A stretch of DNA of 64,000 bases. Source: a bacterium BMS3Bbin14 (lineage in GTDB: Bacteria; Desulfobacterota; Desulfobulbia; Desulfobulbales; Desulfobulbaceae). The notes beneath the pieces were generated by a model. That model searched no databases, had not been told where the DNA came from, and worked only from the letters and a program-made list of their open reading frames with translations. The DNA lies in NCBI GenBank assembly GCA_002897615.1, contig BDTX01000003.1, forward strand, positions 186,001 to 250,000, read 5' to 3'. Below are positions 22,207-64,000 of the stretch, piece by piece. Both the position numbers and the translations under genes were made by a program. Every line of letters starts with the position of its first letter. Positions within the stretch are counted from its first letter, which is position 1.

Positions 22207-22450
22207 CCTGAATTCGTGAGCGTTCGAGAACGGTGCCGATGCAGATAGCGAGCCGACGAGACCTTCGGGGCGGCAACGAGGTTGATTATCCTTGTGATAT
22301 CAACTTGGTTGCCAACGCAGCAGATGCGCCGTTATCGGGCGGACCGCATGGCGGAGCGTTGAAGATCATAAAATGTATTTATTTGGCAACAATGCAATAA
22401 GTTTGCACATGTTGTATAGGGTGACGACCTCAAGCCGTCACGGATTCAGG
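22207..22450 (+). mobile_element. Full-length MITE, copy 4
   Basis: A 244-bp element from CCTGAATTCGTGAGCG to CCGTCACGGATTCAGG, the longest copy in the window. It has an extra segment of about 25 bp near the left end compared with the copy at 38090. It carries the shared internal blocks GTTGATTATCC, GCAGATGCGCCGTTATCGGG and CAATAATGCAATAAG-like sequence. Flanks GGATAAG and GGATAAA are near-duplicates. It fills the gap between serA and the DUF1844 gene. Confidence 0.85.
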
Positions 22451-34444: not shown

Positions 34445-36819
34445 TGGGAACGCAAAAGCCAGAACAGACAAAACGGGTTGATCCCCTGGCCTTGCAGGTT
34501 CCGGAAATTTTACCGGTTCTGCCCCTGTACGGTTTTGTCTTCTTCCCCGGCATGGGGTTTCCCCTGCAGGTGGCCAGCGATTCATCCCGGCAGCTGGTTG
34601 ACGACGCCCTGCTCGCCGACCGGATGGTCGCCCTGATCGCGAGTCGCGACGAAACCGTGTCCCATGGTGAACCGGCCACGGCCAAGGACCTCTTCCGGGT
34701 CGGCCTGGTCGGTTATATCCATAAATTGACCAAGGTCGACGATGAGCATTACCAGGTCCTGGTCAGCGCCACGAAAAAGATCGAGGTGATCGAATATGTT
34801 GAAAACGAGCCATATCTGAAGGCCAGGGTGCGGGAAATCCCCATGGAGCGCATCGAGGACAAAAAGATTGACGCCCTGCTTTTCAACATCCGCAACCAGT
34901 TCCAGAAACTGGTGAAAATAAGCCCATTGGCCCCGGAAATGGCCATGACTGTCAATTCCCTGGCCGATCCTTTTCATGTGGCCTACCTGGTCGTATCGCA
35001 GCTCAACCTTAAGGTGCAGGAGGAGCAGGAGTTACTCGAAATCCGCCCCCTTGACGAGCTTCTGCACCGGGTGGCCCTGGAGCTCAGCAAACGCATCGAG
35101 ACGGCGGAGATGAGCAATCAGCTCCAGGAATCCATCAAGAAAGACATGGATCACCGCCAGCGGGAGTTTTTTCTGCGGCAGCAAATGAATGCGATCCGGA
35201 AAGAGCTGGGCGAGGGAGATGACGACAAGGTCGAGATCAACGAACTGCGTAAACGGGCGGAGGAGACAGGGCTGAGTGAGGAGGCCCGCGCCGCGCTGGA
35301 CAAGGAACTGGCACGCCTGGAGCGCATCCCGCCGTCCTCTCCGGAATATACGGTGTCCCGTAATTATATCGACTGGATTCTTGACCTGCCCTGGACGGTG
35401 TCGACCACCGATACCCTGGACCTGGACCAGGCCGAAAAAGACCTGGACCGCGACCATTACGGCCTGAAAAAGATCAAGAAGAGGATCCTCGAATTCCTGG
35501 CCGTTCGTAAGCTGAAGCCGGATATCCAGGGGCCGATTCTCTGCTTTGTCGGCCCGCCCGGCGTGGGCAAGACCTCGCTCGGCCAGTCCATTGCCCGGAC
35601 CATGAACCGCAAGTTTGTCCGTATCGCCCTGGGCGGTCTTCGCGACGAGGCTGAAATCAGGGGCCACCGGCGGACCTATATCGGGGCCTTGCCGGGCCGG
35701 ATCATTCAGAGTTTGAAAAAGGCCGGCGCGAATAATCCTGTTTTCATGCTGGACGAGATCGACAAGCTGGGGGCCGATTTTCGCGGCGATCCCTCGTCCG
35801 CTCTTCTCGAAGTCCTGGACCCGGAGCAGAACTCCACCTTTACCGATCATTATATCGACATCGAGTTCGATCTCTCGAAGGTGCTGTTTATCGCCACCGC
35901 CAATATGCTGGATACCATCCCCGGCCCGCTCCGGGACCGGATGGAAGTTGTTGAACTGACGGGCTATACGGATTATGAAAAGGTGGTAATCGCCCGGAGA
36001 CATCTGCTGCCCAAGCAGCTTGAGGCCCATGCCTTAAGTGAAGATGACCTGGAGGTGACGGATGAGGCGATTCGCACCCTGATCCGTTCCTACACCAGGG
36101 AAGCCGGGGTGCGGAACCTGGAGCGCGAGCTGGCCGCCGTCTGTAGGCGGGTGGCCAGTGAAATCGCCCGGGGCCGGACGGAAAAAGTCGTGGTGGATGC
36201 CGAGCGCCTCTATGATATCCTCGGGCCGGTCAGGTATTTTCCCGAGATCCAGGCCCGTTCCTGGGGGCCGGGCCTGGCGACCGGCCTGGCCTGGACGCCT
36301 GTGGGCGGGGTGATTCTCTTTATCGAAACATCGAGCATGAAGGGAAAGGGGGGGCTGACGCTGACCGGCAAGCTCGGCGATGTCATGAAAGAGTCGGCCA
36401 CTGCCGCCCTGACCTATATCCGCTCCCATGCCGGGGAACTGGGGATTGACGAGGACCTCTTTTCCCGCATCGATCTTCATGTGCATGTCCCGGAAGGCGC
36501 GGTTCCCAAAGACGGGCCGTCGGCCGGCGTGGCCATGATCTGTTCCCTGGTCTCGGTGATGACCGGCCGCACCGTGCGCTCCGATGTGGCCATGACCGGT
36601 GAAATAACCCTGCGCGGCGACGTGCTGCCGGTGGGGGGAATCAGTGAAAAAGTTCTGGCGGCGCTCCGGGCCGGGATCAAGGAACTGATCCTGCCGGTGC
36701 TGAATGAAAAGGACGTCCTGGAGATTCCCGAGGACGTGCGCAAGGGGGTTGTCTTCCACTATGCGCACACCATCAGCGAGGTCCTCGATATAGCTCTGGA
36801 GAAAAAGGTGGACGCATAA
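34444..36819 (+). CDS. lon: ATP-dependent protease Lon
   Basis: A 791-residue LonA. It has an N-terminal substrate-binding domain (LPVLPLYGFVFFPGMGFPL), an AAA+ module with Walker A CFVGPPGVGKTSLGQSIA and Walker B PVFMLDEIDKLG, and a C-terminal Ser-Lys protease domain with catalytic Ser in PKDGPSAGVAM and Lys in GGISEKVLAALRAG. It degrades misfolded and regulatory proteins. It is coupled by 1-bp TAATG overlaps to hsp20 before it and ftsY after it. Confidence 0.97.
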   Translation: MGTQKPEQTKRVDPLALQVPEILPVLPLYGFVFFPGMGFPLQVASDSSRQLVDDALLADRMVALIASRDETVSHGEPATAKDLFRVGLVGYIHKLTKVDDEHYQVLVSATKKIEVIEYVENEPYLKARVREIPMERIEDKKIDALLFNIRNQFQKLVKISPLAPEMAMTVNSLADPFHVAYLVVSQLNLKVQEEQELLEIRPLDELLHRVALELSKRIETAEMSNQLQESIKKDMDHRQREFFLRQQMNAIRKELGEGDDDKVEINELRKRAEETGLSEEARAALDKELARLERIPPSSPEYTVSRNYIDWILDLPWTVSTTDTLDLDQAEKDLDRDHYGLKKIKKRILEFLAVRKLKPDIQGPILCFVGPPGVGKTSLGQSIARTMNRKFVRIALGGLRDEAEIRGHRRTYIGALPGRIIQSLKKAGANNPVFMLDEIDKLGADFRGDPSSALLEVLDPEQNSTFTDHYIDIEFDLSKVLFIATANMLDTIPGPLRDRMEVVELTGYTDYEKVVIARRHLLPKQLEAHALSEDDLEVTDEAIRTLIRSYTREAGVRNLERELAAVCRRVASEIARGRTEKVVVDAERLYDILGPVRYFPEIQARSWGPGLATGLAWTPVGGVILFIETSSMKGKGGLTLTGKLGDVMKESATAALTYIRSHAGELGIDEDLFSRIDLHVHVPEGAVPKDGPSAGVAMICSLVSVMTGRTVRSDVAMTGEITLRGDVLPVGGISEKVLAALRAGIKELILPVLNEKDVLEIPEDVRKGVVFHYAHTISEVLDIALEKKVDA

Positions 36820-38102
36820 TGCTGGGCTGGTTTAAAAGAAAACGTAAGAAGAAGGAAGAAGCCGTTGCCGCGGCCGAGGTTGAAGCCGGAGAAGAGGCGG
36901 TCGGCCGCCCGGCGGCGGCAGGGACTGGGGACGATCAGGATGGCGCTCCGGCCGTTCCCCCGGAGCCTGAGCCCGAGCCAAAACCCGAGCCTGAGCCTGA
37001 GCCCGAGCCCAAACCCGAGCCGAAGCCCAAGCCGGAGCCGGACGCCGCCCCGGAAAGCGAAGCCGGTGACCAGGAGGAACCGCCGCCGGCAGATGCCGCC
37101 CCGGCCGCGGAACCGGGCGGAGAAACAGCCAGCCCGGCCGGAGCCGGCCGGGAGAAGCCGGCCCGCAAGTCTTCGTTCCAGCGGTTGCGCGAACGGCTGG
37201 GCAAGACCAGGAGCGCCCTCGTTTATCGGCTTGACAGCCTTTTTCGCGGCCGGAAGAAAATCGACCAGGCCCTGTTTGACGACCTGGAGGAGATCCTCAT
37301 CACCGCCGACCTGGGTGTCGGCACGACTCAGGATCTGCTCGATGACATCAGGATAAAGGTCAAGCGCGACCAGCTCAGTGATCCCCAGGCCCTGAAAGCC
37401 GTTCTCAAGGACAAAATTCTTGATTATTTACAGGAATCCGACCAGGCAACTGAGCTGAATATGCCGCAGACCGGCCCCTTTGTCATCCTGGTGGTCGGCG
37501 TCAACGGGGTGGGCAAGACGACGACCATCGGCAAGATTGCCGCCAAGTTTTCCGGTTCCGGTCATTCGGTCCTGCTGGTGGCCGGCGATACCTTCAGGGC
37601 CGCGGCTATCGATCAGCTCCGGATCTGGGGAGAACGGACCGGGGTGGAGGTGGTGGCCCGGCAGCCCGGCGTCGATCCTGCCTCGGTCGTTTTTGACGGT
37701 ATCGAATATGGAACCGCCCACGCCTTTGATGTCATTATCATCGACACCGCCGGTCGCCTGCACACCCAGGTGAATCTCATGGAGGAGCTGAAAAAGATCA
37801 AGCGGGTGATCGGCAAGAAAATGGCTGGCGCCCCTCATGAAGTCATGCTGGTCCTTGACGCCACCACCGGCCAGAACGCCATCTCCCAGGCCAAGCTCTT
37901 TAACGAGGCGGTCGGTATAACCGGCCTGGCCATGACCAAGCTTGACGGTACGGCCAAGGGCGGTATCGTCGCCAATGTCTGCCGGGAACTGAAAATCCCG
38001 GTTCGGTTTATCGGGATCGGTGAACAGGTCGACGACCTGCGCGATTTTGATCCGACGGAATTCGTCGAGGCCCTGTTTAATGAGGGTAACCTGAATCCGT
38101 GA
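36819..38102 (+). CDS. ftsY: Signal recognition particle receptor FtsY
   Basis: A 427-residue SRP GTPase. The C-terminal NG domain has G1 [16 protein letters not shown]3 [16 protein letters not shown] and G4 [10 protein letters not shown]. The N-terminal A region is a low-complexity Pro-Glu/Lys repeat ([15 protein letters not shown] pattern, about residues 45-75) followed by acidic stretches, probably a membrane-interaction tether. The final residues NLNP and the TGA stop are encoded by the left end of a MITE that begins at 38090, so the native C-terminus was probably EG with a TAA stop. Confidence 0.95.
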
Positions 38103-38308
38103 ACGTTCGAGAACGGTGCAGATGCAAGGCGGCAACGATGTTGATTATCCTGGTGTGATATCAACGAGTTGCCAACACAGCAGATGCGCCGTTATCGGGC
38201 GTCCCGGAGGGCGGCGCGGTGAAAAGTATAAAATGCATTTGTTCGTAAATAATGCAATAAATTCCACATATTGCCTGGAATGTTACTTCAAGCCGTCACG
38301 GATTCAGG
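38090..38308 (+). mobile_element. Full-length MITE providing the ftsY stop codon, copy 7
   Basis: A 219-bp element from CCTGAATCCGTGAACG to CCGTCACGGATTCAGG, with all internal blocks intact. It is the best reference copy. The flanking pentamers are GGTAA and GTTAA, a near target duplication. Its first bases read through in the ftsY frame and the terminal CCGTGA supplies the stop. The remaining 185 bp up to the J-protein gene show nothing else. Confidence 0.88.
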
Positions 38309-38493: not shown

Positions 38494-39333
38494 ATGGAAT
38501 ATCGGCAACACAATCAACCCGGTTGCGGGGGCTGTCTGCTCATTGCCGGACTTCTGGTCCTCCTTTTCGGCGGTGCCCCGGCACTTCTTGACTTCCTCGG
38601 TTTTCTTTTCTTCACCGGCATCTTCGGCGTTGTGCTGCTGGTGGCGCTCTTCTGGGGCTTCAGCTATTACATCCAGCAGCGGGTCAGTTCCTACGAGTCT
38701 TCGCAGACCGAGACCCATAACCGCTTTGTCTACCTGCTGGTGAATATCCTGGTCAAGATTGCCCAGGCGGACGGTCATTTCTCCAAGGCCGAACTCCGGA
38801 CCATGCTGAATTTTTTCCAGTACAACCTGCGTTACAGTCAGGACCAGATGTACTGGGTCAAACAATTGATCAAGGACGCCCGTGACGAGCAGGTCGGCAT
38901 GGACGCGCTGCTCAGGGAATTCCGGGATACTTTCGCCTACGAGCCCCGCCTGATTCTGCTGGAATTGATTTATCAGATTCTCTACACCAAGGAGACCGTC
39001 TCGGCCCAGGAACTGCAACAGGCGAGAAATATTGCCGCCTTCCTGGAGATTTCAGTTTATGACCAGCGGACCATCGAGGCCAAGTACATGTACCGGCAGC
39101 GCCAGGAAGCGGCAACGGCGTTCCAGGCCGAGGAACAGTATTACGCGGTGCTCGGCCTGGAGCCGGGCGCGGATTTTGCGGTTATTAAAAAGGCCTATCG
39201 CAAGCTGTGCCTGCAGTACCATCCTGACAAGGTCAGCCATCTCGGAGAAGAGTTCCAGCGGGTCGCCGAGGAAAAGATGAAGGAAATCAACGGGGCCTAC
39301 GATTATTTCAAGAGAAAATATAATGAGACGTAA
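38494..39333 (+). CDS. DjlA-like membrane-anchored J-domain co-chaperone
   Basis: A 279-residue protein. Residues about 12-60 hold one or two hydrophobic segments ([19 protein letters not shown] and an adjoining helix). Residues 75-190 form a TerB/DjlA-like helical domain ([18 protein letters not shown]). A C-terminal J domain (about 215-279) contains the HPD motif in [12 protein letters not shown]. The architecture equals DjlA, an inner-membrane DnaK co-chaperone. It lies downstream of ftsY but is separated from it by a MITE. Confidence 0.85.
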
Positions 39334-39341
39334 TCGGGTTT

Positions 39342-40075
39342 GCCGGCGGGTCGGATGGTCAGGTAGGTTGGCGTAGAGCGGTTAACGGCTGCCGGGTTTG
39401 TTGGGTTTCGCTCTGCCTGGTGGTGTCTCCGACGTTCCGGCAGGAATAAAGGATAAGCGAAACCCAACGTTTTTGCTTACGATCCGCTCTACGCCAACCT
39501 ACGGGAATACATCTGGTCATCCCTTTGATCCGTCTGCCGTCTGCCGGCGGGTCGGATGGTCAGGTAGGTTGTGGTAGAGCGGTTAGCGGCCGCCGGGTTT
39601 GTTGGGTTTCGCTCTGCCTGGTGGTGTCTCCGACGTTCCGGTAGGAAAAAAGGATAAGCGAAACCCAACATTTTGCTTACGATCCGCTCTACGCCAACCT
39701 ACGGGAATACATCTGGTCATCCCTTTGATCCGTCTGCCGGCGCCGGCGGGTCGGATGGTCAGGTAGGTTGTGGTAGAGCGATTAGCGGCTGCCGGGTTTG
39801 TTGGGTTTCGCTCTGCCTGGTGGTGTCTCCGACGTTCCGGCAGGAAAAAAGGATAAGCGAAACCCAACGTTTTTGCTTACGATCCGCTCTACGCCAACCT
39901 ACGGGAATGCATCTGGTCATCCCTTTGATCCGTCTGCCGGCGCCGGCGGGTCGGATGGTCAGGTAGGTTGTGGTAGAGCGGTTAGCGGCCGCCGGGTTTG
40001 TTGGGTTTCGCTCTGCCTGGTGGTGTCTCCGACGTGCCGGCAAGAATAAAGGATAAGCGAAACCCAACGTCTTTC
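39342..40075 (+). repeat. 200-bp tandem repeat array of nested palindromes (about 3.6 units)
   Basis: Units begin at 39342, 39543, 39742 and 39942 (period 199-201 bp); the last stops after about 130 bp. Each unit holds an outer inverted repeat (GTAGGTTGGCGTAGAGCGG with CCGCTCTACGCCAACCTAC, for example 39363-39381 and 39484-39502). It also holds an inner one (GTTGGGTTTCGC at 39400-39411 with GCGAAACCCAAC at 39457-39468). Units are almost identical; in units 2-4 the first outer arm has drifted to GTAGGTTGTGGTAGAGCGG. The whole gap between the J-protein and aminotransferase genes is repeat, with no gene. Confidence 0.93.
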
Positions 40076-40089
40076 TGATGGAGAGAACC

Positions 40090-41277
40090 ATGACTGTTGC
40101 GGAAAAAATGAGGGATTTTGCGGAAAAGTCGTCCTGGATTCGCAAAATGTTTGAAGAGGGGGCCAAGATGAAGGCCGAGTTCGGGGTGGAAAATGTGTTT
40201 GATTTCAGCCTCGGCAATCCGGACGTCCCGCCGCCGCCGGAGTTCAGCGAAGTGCTGCGGGAGCTGGCGGTGAATGACAGGGCCGGCGTCCACGCCTATA
40301 TGCCGAACGGCGGCTACCCCTATGTGCGGGAGGCGGTTGCGGCCACGCTCGCCGCCGAGCAGGAGGTGGCAATCGACCTGGGCGACGTGCTGATGACCTG
40401 CGGCGCCGCCGGGGCGCTTAACGTGGTGATGAAATCTCTGCTTGACCCGGGGGACGAGGTCATTATCCTGGCGCCGTTTTTTGTGGAATATCATTTTTAC
40501 GTGGACAATCACGGCGGCGTGACCAGGGTCGTGTCCACGGATGACGAGTTTAACCTCGATCTTGACGCCATCGAAGAGGCGCTGACCGCGAAGACCAAGG
40601 TGGTGCTGATCAACAGCCCCAATAATCCCACGGGCCAGGTCTATTCCCGGGAGTCCCTGGCCCGACTGGGACAACTGCTTGACCGGGCCGGGAATAAGTT
40701 CTGCACCACCATCTACCTGGTGGCCGACGAACCCTACCGCAAGATCGTCTTTGACGGTTGCGAGGTGCCTCCGGTGATGACGGCAACCGCAAACACCATT
40801 GTCGTATCGTCATATTCCAAGGACCTGTCCCTGCCGGGCGAGCGCATCGGCTACCTGGCCGTGCATCCCGATATCAAGGACAAGGTGGCCCTGCTTGACG
40901 CCATGACCCTGGCCAACCGCATTCTCGGTTTTGTCAATGCGCCGGCCCTGATGCAGCGGGTAGTGGCGGAACTGCAGGATGTAACCGTTGACATCTCAAT
41001 CTATGAACGCCGCCGGCAGTTGTTCTGTACCGTTCTCGATGCCGCAGGTTTCGAGTATGTGAAACCCAGGGGGGCCTTCTACCTGTTTCCAAAGACGCCC
41101 ATTGACGATGATGTGGAGTTCTGCGGCATCCTGCAGCAGGAGAAGATCCTCGGCGTGCCCGGCCGGGGGTTCGGGGCGCCGGGATATTTCCGGCTGGCCT
41201 TCTGCGTGCAGGACGAGGTGATTGAGCGCTCTGCCGAGGGTTTCATGGCGGCAATGGCCAGGGCTATTAACCGTTAG
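40090..41277 (+). CDS. Class I/II PLP-dependent aminotransferase
   Basis: A 395-residue fold-type I aminotransferase. The PLP lysine is in [16 protein letters not shown], the cofactor motifs are [11 protein letters not shown] and [12 protein letters not shown], and the N-terminal substrate loop is [14 protein letters not shown]. The nearest family is aspartate/aromatic aminotransferase-like, but the substrate is not certain. GGAG precedes ATG 40090. Its 3' end overlaps the convergent glmM gene by 11 bp. The upstream sequence is the 200-bp repeat array, so its promoter must lie in or next to the last repeat unit. Confidence 0.88.
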
Positions 41278-44665: not shown

Positions 44666-44821
44666 CTGAATCCGTGAGCGTTCGAGAATGCAGCAGATGC
44701 GCCGTTATCGGGCGGACCGCCGGGCGGCGCGGTGAAGATCAGCAAATGCGTTTGTTTGGCAATAATGCAATAAGTTCCACATATTGCATGAAGTGTCATC
44801 TCAAGCCGTCACGGATTCAGG
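44666..44821 (+). mobile_element. Internally shortened MITE with target duplication, copy 8
   Basis: A 156-bp copy (CTGAATCCGTGAGCG to CCGTCACGGATTCAGG) lacking the GTTGATTATCC block. It is flanked by TTGTT on both sides (44661-44665 and 44822-44826), a perfect 5-bp duplication. It lies between the divergent cdaA and DUF748 genes, and its sequence reads as a false N-terminal extension of the latter. Confidence 0.85.
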
Positions 44822-44864
44822 TTGTTGCTCATATGTAGTTTTGTTTCCCGAAGCTCATGGTTTT

Positions 44865-50182: not shown

Positions 50183-50485
50183 TAGTTTTCTCCTTTAGTT
50201 AAATAACAAAGTGTAATGAAATATGTTTTGACAAATTACAATCCGAGGTAGTGTGAGATGTTGCTGCGGGCAACATGCACATCCGGCCGGCAAGGCTGTT
50301 TTAACGATGAAAAATGTTTGCGGCAGCCAAAGCCGGAGATTGACTTCACCATTTATTTTAACTTATGTGTATTATTTTATAGCGTTTCTCCTCGCACCTC
50401 AAGGCGTTTTTTGAGGATGACGATGACATTTCATCGGTCCGCCGTACCTTTATTCGCGGCGGTAACCTGTTTTTTTGATATTCAC

Positions 50486-50710
50486 CTTGAATCCGTGATT
50501 GCTCAAGGTGATGTTTCAGGCAATATATGGAATTTATTATATTATTATTAAATAAATGCATTTTCAGGTCTTCACCGCGCCGCCCTCAGGGGTGTTCGAG
50601 AACTGCGCCTCTGCTGCGTTGACAACTAGTTGATATCACACCAGGATAATCAACATAGTTGCCGTTTTGCATCTGCACCGCTCTCGAACGCTCACGGACC
50701 CCGGATTCAA
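50486..50710 (-). mobile_element. Full-length MITE in reverse orientation, copy 9
   Basis: A 225-bp inverted copy: CCTTGAATCCGTGA at the left and CCGGATTCAA at the right, with the internal blocks CTTCACCGCGCCGCCC, TTGATATCACACCAGGATAA and GCACCGCTCTCGAACG in reverse. It is more diverged than copy 7. The 300 bp to its left (50183-50485) and 119 bp to its right show no gene. Confidence 0.8.
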
Positions 50711-57777: not shown

Positions 57778-57903
57778 CCTGGATCCGTTATCGGCCGCCC
57801 CGCAGGGCGGCGCGGTGCAGACCAGGAAGTGCGTTTGTTCGGCAATAATACAATAAATCCCGCATGTTGCATAGTGTATCCCTCGAGCCGTCACGGATCC
57901 TGG
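57778..57903 (+). mobile_element. Shortened MITE, copy 10
   Basis: A 126-bp derivative from CCTGGATCCGTTATCGGC to GTCACGGATCCTGG. The left third is missing. It keeps GCGGCGCGGTGCAGACC and the CAATAATACAATAAATC block. It sits between menG and mqnA in the middle of an otherwise continuous minus-strand cluster. Confidence 0.75.
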
Positions 57904-63558: not shown

Positions 63559-63798
63559 AAAAAACGCAAAAAATGCGATTTCTACAATTTTCCACAGAAT
63601 AATATAATCTAATACAAAAATGAAAAAAAATCAAATAAAGATTCTGCTTAAGGGATCGCTTAAAAAACAATTCCGCATTTTCGCCTCCCGGTTTCCAGGC
63701 TGTTTTTAGTCGAATCTCAAGCACGAAATCTGGCGCCGATTCTCCGGACTTGTTCCCTGCGCGAATTCCCTGGCCGGGAGTGAAGGTTTTTAATGCAA

Positions 63799-64000
63799 CC
63801 TGGATCCGTGAGCGTTCGGGAATGGTGCGGATGCAAGGCGGCAACGATGTTGATTATCCTGGCAGGATATCAACTTTGTTGCCAACGCAGCAGCTGCGCC
63901 GTTATCGGGCGGACCGGAGGGCGGCGAGGTGAAGACCAAGAAATACGTTTATTGGGCAATAATGCAACAAATTCCATATGTTGCATGGAATGTCACCTCA
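63799..64000 (+). mobile_element. MITE cut by the window end, copy 11
   Basis: Starts CCTGGATCCGTGAGCG and runs through GTTGATTATCC, GCGCCGTTATCGGGCGG and CAATAATGCAACAAATTCC to the last base of the window. The final CCGTCACGGATTCAGG end would lie just outside. At least 202 bp are present, matching copies 4 and 7. Confidence 0.85.

Follow-up and report, generated by a model that had tools for sequence, protein, structure and literature searches.

We identified a tandem array of palindromic units in the window, the 64,000-nucleotide stretch of DNA analysed here. TRF reported a single long-period array in the window, at 39342-40074 (period 200, 3.7 copies, 95% match). It fills almost the entire intergenic gap between a TerB-DnaJ gene and an aminotransferase gene, up to the aminotransferase start, and both genes are co-directional. 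Unit boundaries were set by splitting the array at a common 18-mer, which placed the unit starts at 39350, 39551, 39750 and 39950. In this split, the units are spaced by 201, 199 and 200 bp and share 94-97% identity. These values agree with the sequence-only reading, which had placed the array here with a period of 199-201 bp and about 3.6 units. The aminotransferase gene that it had named directly after the array was also confirmed (ORF start at 40078, class I/II by Pfam). The features of the locus are:

38494 to 39333, + strand: upstream gene, TerB plus DnaJ domain protein of 279 aa (Pfam), stop at 39333
39342 to 40074, no strand: whole tandem array, 3.7 units of about 200 bp (TRF and unit split)
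39350 to 39550, + strand: unit 1, 201 bp, the only unit whose 19-bp outer inverted repeat is perfect (unit split, fold)
39551 to 39749, + strand: unit 2, 199 bp (unit split)
39750 to 39949, + strand: unit 3, 200 bp (unit split)
39950 to 40074, + strand: partial unit 4, which stops just past the inner right arm and lacks the right outer arm (TRF and unit split)
39363 to 39381, + strand: outer left arm of unit 1, begins GTAG
starts at 39564, 39763 and 39963, + strand: outer left arms of units 2-4, bases changed
39484 to 39502, - strand: outer right arm of unit 1, with its GTAG start on the - strand
39684 to 39702 and 39884 to 39902, - strand: outer right arms of units 2 and 3
39400 to 39412, + strand: inner left arm of unit 1; those of units 2-4 start at 39601, 39800 and 40000
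39456 to 39468, - strand: inner right arm of unit 1; its 12-bp core starts at 39658, 39857 and 40057 in units 2-4
39503 to 39562, no strand: linker between elements 1 and 2, with its own imperfect inverted repeat; not found beside dispersed copies
40078 to 41277, + strand: downstream gene, class I/II aminotransferase (Pfam), 399-aa ORF with a second in-frame ATG at 40090

Each unit comprises a nested palindrome of about 145 bp (defined as "family A"), with GTAG at both outer ends, and a locus-specific linker of about 55 bp. In family A, the two ends are formed by outer arms that start with GTAG; further inwards lie the 13-bp inner arms, which enclose a centre of about 42 nt. An outer 19-bp and an inner 12-bp inverted repeat had been proposed for every unit. 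The inner repeat (GTTGGGTTTCGC/GCGAAACCCAAC) does occur in all four units, but its length is 13 bp when extended. The outer repeat is perfect in unit 1 only: units 2 and 3 are mismatched at two adjacent positions, unit 3 has one further mismatch at the inner end, and unit 4 lacks the repeat. The left outer arms of units 2-4 have GTAGGTTGTGGTAGAGCG in place of GTAGGTTGGCGTAGAGCG. The imperfect inverted repeat of the linker was recognised by eye. No convincing gene was found inside the array units in the ORF list. Elsewhere in the window, a 30-bp (6-bp) tandem repeat, rich in Pro and Glu, lies at 36960-37039, in the N-terminal part of a 427-aa ORF (36819-38102).

A single strand of family A is predicted to fold into one long hairpin. 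As RNA, unit 1 reached -76.3 kcal/mol (z -7.4), and 0 of 200 shuffles were as good; unit 3 folded as DNA had a z of -3.9 compared with shuffles. At the level of predicted folding, this agrees with the hairpin-forming potential that had been suggested for the palindromes. Among 17 aligned copies, the number of stem pairs changed on both sides was 4, compared with 0.8 in shuffles (1 of 500 shuffles was as high), and pairing cells made up 94.7%, compared with at most 46% when the alignment was slid. Selection, hairpin repair or both may account for the pairing preserved among family A copies.

The window belongs to a 2.71-Mb draft genome, assembled into 30 contigs and with a completeness of 94%. 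In it, the 12-mer GTTGGGTTTCGC was counted 25 times and a reversed-pattern control 0 times. Together with the fold of unit 1, this indicates that the inner repeat did not arise by chance. A genome-wide search for single units had been proposed; with unit 3 as the query, it recovered 10 family A units at 9 places outside the array, with 73-84% identity (matches at E<1e-6; weaker ones, REP-B pieces included, were left out). These dispersed places are on C16 (two units in tandem), C22 (two places), C9, C19, C3, C6, C5 and C21. The matches are mostly confined to unit positions 9-158, which is the palindrome without the linker. The window linker is specific to its locus, with no repeat elsewhere in this genome at E<1e-5, and the linker of the C16 array is part of another repeat. 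Both outer arms are present in the C16 and C9 copies; in the alignment, the left one is missing from the remaining dispersed copies. Where both are retained the outer arms are 18-19 bp long, and GTAG begins both of them in all six two-armed copies (units 1-3, C16a, C16b and C9). At five of the nine dispersed loci (C9, C22a, C3b, C6 and C5), at least 60 bp of further common sequence extends past the right arm. Nine dispersed loci plus the array is a low copy number for a REP, and an intergenic position was established for the window array alone.

Family A was detected at E<=1e-5 in 2 of 57 related genomes, namely this genome and a congener (G001). The orthologous gap in G001 is 236 bp long, and the only part of the element in it is a single left half; the flanking proteins share 94-95% amino acid identity. 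The aminotransferase was present in 54 genomes, and of the 30 loci examined, six lack the TerB-DnaJ neighbour and hence had no gap to count. Another 22 relatives have the two genes next to each other, separated by 22-320 bp without a family A match. Within the set of genomes searched, only this lineage has the array, and from the half element of G001 and the 22 relatives without a match we infer that it originated locally. The near identity of the units had been taken as a sign of recent amplification. The comparison with relatives agrees with amplification in this lineage, but the units differ by 3-6%, so it was not extremely recent.

Two of the dispersed family A copies are located in stretches of 307 and 273 nt, whose counterparts in G001 measure 18 and 15 nt. 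The long stretches look like insertions and favour mobility of family A, with either gain in this genome or loss in G001. At C3b, the missing stretch starts and finishes with the ends of a second repeat, which family A seems to have entered. We found no clear target-site duplication for family A by eye in the flanks of the copies or in the two empty sites. A pattern scan of a wider contig collection, from which records near this genome were possibly excluded, returned a single match, in a Desulfobulbaceae MAG, without the right outer arm.

TRF detected at least four more tandem palindrome arrays in this genome, all GTTGGGTTTCG-bearing. Their units are 242 bp on C16 (family A, running to the contig end), 198 bp on C26, 195 bp on C14 and 133 bp on C3, and the last three arrays consist of REP-B-type palindromes. 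The linker differs from array to array, which suggests that an element was duplicated on site together with adjacent DNA. Such arrangements have published parallels. For Pseudomonas fluorescens SBW25, section 11 of PMC3116915 describes 16 clusters of REPINs arranged in tandem together with flanking sequence; the largest comprises four REPINs and one REP over >700 bp. As in family A, the SBW25 clusters contain inverted pairs that form one hairpin, in tandem with flanks. Compared with the REPINs described there, family A has halves without a self-folding stem, is about 145 bp long and has 10 dispersed units, whereas SBW25 has hundreds. Sections 5 and 14 of PMC3733652 describe head-head dimers of GTAG REPs, and clusters of these dimers in tandem with flanking DNA of variable length. 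These dimers are like family A in having GTAG at both outside ends (their spacers are mostly 20-100 bp) and in forming large tandem clusters with flanking DNA. In contrast to the REPs of these sections, the GTAG-adjacent stem of family A arises only between the halves, not within each REP. Tandem amplification of such palindromes had been called less usual than their dispersal; the clusters described in these parts of the two papers, and the at least four other arrays found here, do not bear this out.

The family A sequence was not found in the literature searched: among the papers listed as containing its sequence strings, no title concerned bacterial repeats, and no paper combined Desulfobulb- taxa, MITEs and palindromes. 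Repeat sequences are often given in figures. The sequence family of the array is new, but its arrangement is of a known kind and largely ordinary. With it, REP/REPIN-like elements and tandem clusters of them are extended to a lineage that has been little studied (the close pattern match is in a Desulfobulbaceae MAG). The part of PMC3116915 that treats REPIN clusters suggests a second mechanism for them and leaves their origin open; this genome, in which tandem palindrome arrays number at least five, could address this by comparison of the array junctions. The window array could also be a strain marker.

A search for a linked RAYT transposase had also been suggested. We detected five Y1_Tnp matches in this genome and one in G001. 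One of them, on C25, is a 180-aa Y1_Tnp protein (Pfam), a RAYT with inverted copies of GTAGGTTGGGTAGAGGAACGAAACCCAAC (defined as "REP-B") on both sides, which together form a REPtron. It is the only Y1_Tnp gene flanked by GTTGGG-type REPs, and those are REP-B, not family A. Thus, the genome does encode a RAYT with inverted GTAG-REPs, but on another contig and with a related rather than identical repeat. In the stretches read around these matches, no RAYT flanked by family A was found in this genome (94% complete) or in G001. The head GTAGGTTGG and tail CGAAACCCAACAAACC are common to family A and REP-B, and palindromes of both occur in tandem. REP-B differs in being 29 bp long, in folding alone as a monomer (z -3.62) and in flanking the RAYT. 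Four family A half-elements, in contrast, folded no better than shuffles (z -0.11, -0.93, -0.01 and 0.20). In head and stem, REP-B is like the RAYT-flanking REP of Coxiella burnetii, GTAGGTTGGGCTGAGCTTGCGAAGCCCAAC, tabulated in PMC2817692 (Table 1), the paper in which RAYTs are defined; the table entry is a single REP from a different host, and the relevant part of the paper has no nested element like family A. In PMC8266576, single-stranded REPs were shown to be cleaved in a GTAG-dependent manner.

Exact REP-B matches occur in 17 of 257 genomes of the order (0 control matches), and homologues of the C25 RAYT in 39 of the 257. The two are found together in 8 of the 17 REP-B genomes, compared with 39 of 257 overall (hypergeometric P 0.0012, a value that ignores phylogeny and completeness). 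The other nine REP-B genomes, G001 among these, are without a RAYT homologue at E<=1e-50. In G113 and G123, the closest C25 RAYT homologues (71 and 69% identity) are encoded <1 kb from REP-B.

Like a REP, family A has the tetranucleotide GTAG 5′ of a palindrome, but its halves do not have their own stem-loop next to it (z -0.93 to 0.20). A single long hairpin is predicted, but the halves are not REPs by this self-folding test, and a cognate RAYT flanked by the same sequence, as defined for REPINs, was not found in this genome (94% complete). As in REPIN clusters, the tandem array includes flanking DNA, given that the 55-bp linker is absent from the dispersed copies. The terminal inverted repeats and lack of coding capacity are those of a MITE. 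Because its halves are not self-folding and no RAYT flanked by it was found, we did not file family A as a strict REP or REPIN, although it is built and arranged like one.

We consider it probable (roughly 0.68, for the whole class of explanation) that the array arose by tandem amplification, at this locus, of a miniature element that is REP/REPIN-like and non-autonomous. One family A copy would have resided between the TerB-DnaJ and aminotransferase genes before the split from the congener. In a later step, the element and about 55 bp of adjacent DNA would have been duplicated in head-to-tail orientation; the most likely route is replication slippage or unequal recombination, with the hairpin as the promoting structure. 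Single elements may have spread with the help of an HUH (Y1/RAYT-like) transposase that works in trans on the ends carrying GTAG. The C25 REP-B RAYT is tentatively the best candidate for the mobilising enzyme, and this RAYT step is clearly less likely than the whole class of explanation. Such an origin would not require a function in the cell, and any effects on neighbouring mRNA would be incidental. In a bolder version, which we regard as improbable, family A would be a new RAYT-substrate architecture. It would be a GTAG-ended hairpin that gains its stem only through pairing of the two ends, and a RAYT whose usual substrate is the 29-bp REP-B would mobilise it in trans. Adjacent DNA would then be copied too, and tandem arrays would form by a replicative single-strand mechanism, not by slippage.

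It is also possible, if rather doubtful, that family A is a TIR MITE moved by a cut-and-paste (DDE) transposase and that its GTAG ends are coincidental. Terminal inverted repeats of 18-19 bp, a length of about 145 bp and the lack of coding capacity fit a MITE, the genus contains two other MITE-like families (5-bp target duplications accompany one of these), and the sequence shared past the right arm at five of the nine dispersed loci (at least 60 bp) points the same way. However, no target duplication was seen for family A, most dispersed copies lack the left outer arm, and the GTAGGTTGG head is common to the family A ends and the RAYT-flanking REP. The co-directional genes, an array that takes up nearly the whole gap to the aminotransferase start and the very stable RNA fold of unit 1 would suit a selected regulatory leader, with mRNA hairpins serving as an attenuator, processing site or stability element. 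We consider this very unlikely, as 22 relatives are without the element at this locus, an Rfam search of 39000-40300 gave 0 matches at E<=1, and a scan of the array found 0 promoter-like sites and 3 terminator-like sites compared with 1.6 in shuffles, which is chance level. Moreover, partial unit 4, which is nearest to the aminotransferase gene, folds no better than shuffles (z -1.15).

The copy number of the array could be an assembly artefact, given that the genome is a draft of 30 contigs and that the other family A array (C16) reaches the end of its contig. We see little likelihood of this in the window, where the units differ by 3-6% and in length (201, 199 and 200 bp), and are thus distinguishable from each other, and where the contig continues into both flanking genes. 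Integron attC sites have the core motif RYYYAAC...GTTRRRY, with which ACCCAAC...GTTGGGT across the linker agrees, and the genome encodes an integron integrase (C6:274313-275248; 364.7 bits, with the cut-off at 265) as well as another one that is broken. We nevertheless rejected the interpretation of the units as attC sites or gene cassettes as scarcely credible: the intervals between the cores do not accommodate a cassette ORF, family A has no match in the DNA of the integrase loci, which lie on other contigs, and family A copies are scattered singly.

Other mobile-like elements were noted in the genus. A 220-bp MITE-like repeat with ends CCTGAATCCGTGA / TCACGGATCCAGG occurs at six places in the window at E<1e-10 (38090-38308, 50484-50706, 22269-22450, 63796-64000, 44693-44822 and 57785-57898). 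There are >40 copies in this genome among the matches listed (456 first-look candidates) and about 40 in G001, and the repeat may number in the hundreds. Both ends were read in 11 copies, and 6 of these have exact 5-bp flanking duplications. Another MITE-like repeat, about 109 bp long and with ends GTAACTGTTCAG / CTGAACAGTTAC, was identified in G001 (L139:1455-1563) and on C3 of this genome (L014, ~2026-2298), with no match in the window at E<=1e-3; the family A copy C3b sits inside it. The integron integrase above the NCBIfam cut-off is at G000:C6:274313-275248 (L173), and the broken one, at C27:347-1268 (L174), has a copy of the 220-bp repeat nearby. A second RAYT-like gene on C28 (L026:1912-2382; 156 aa, Y1_Tnp) has inverted repeats with GTAGGAGCCCACC-type sequence around it and is another REPtron candidate. 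In G001, a 356-aa Y1_Tnp protein (L122:317-1387) has GGGGTCAAGTC-type inverted repeats at its ends, like the TIR-flanked tyrosine transposases described in part of PMC3733652.
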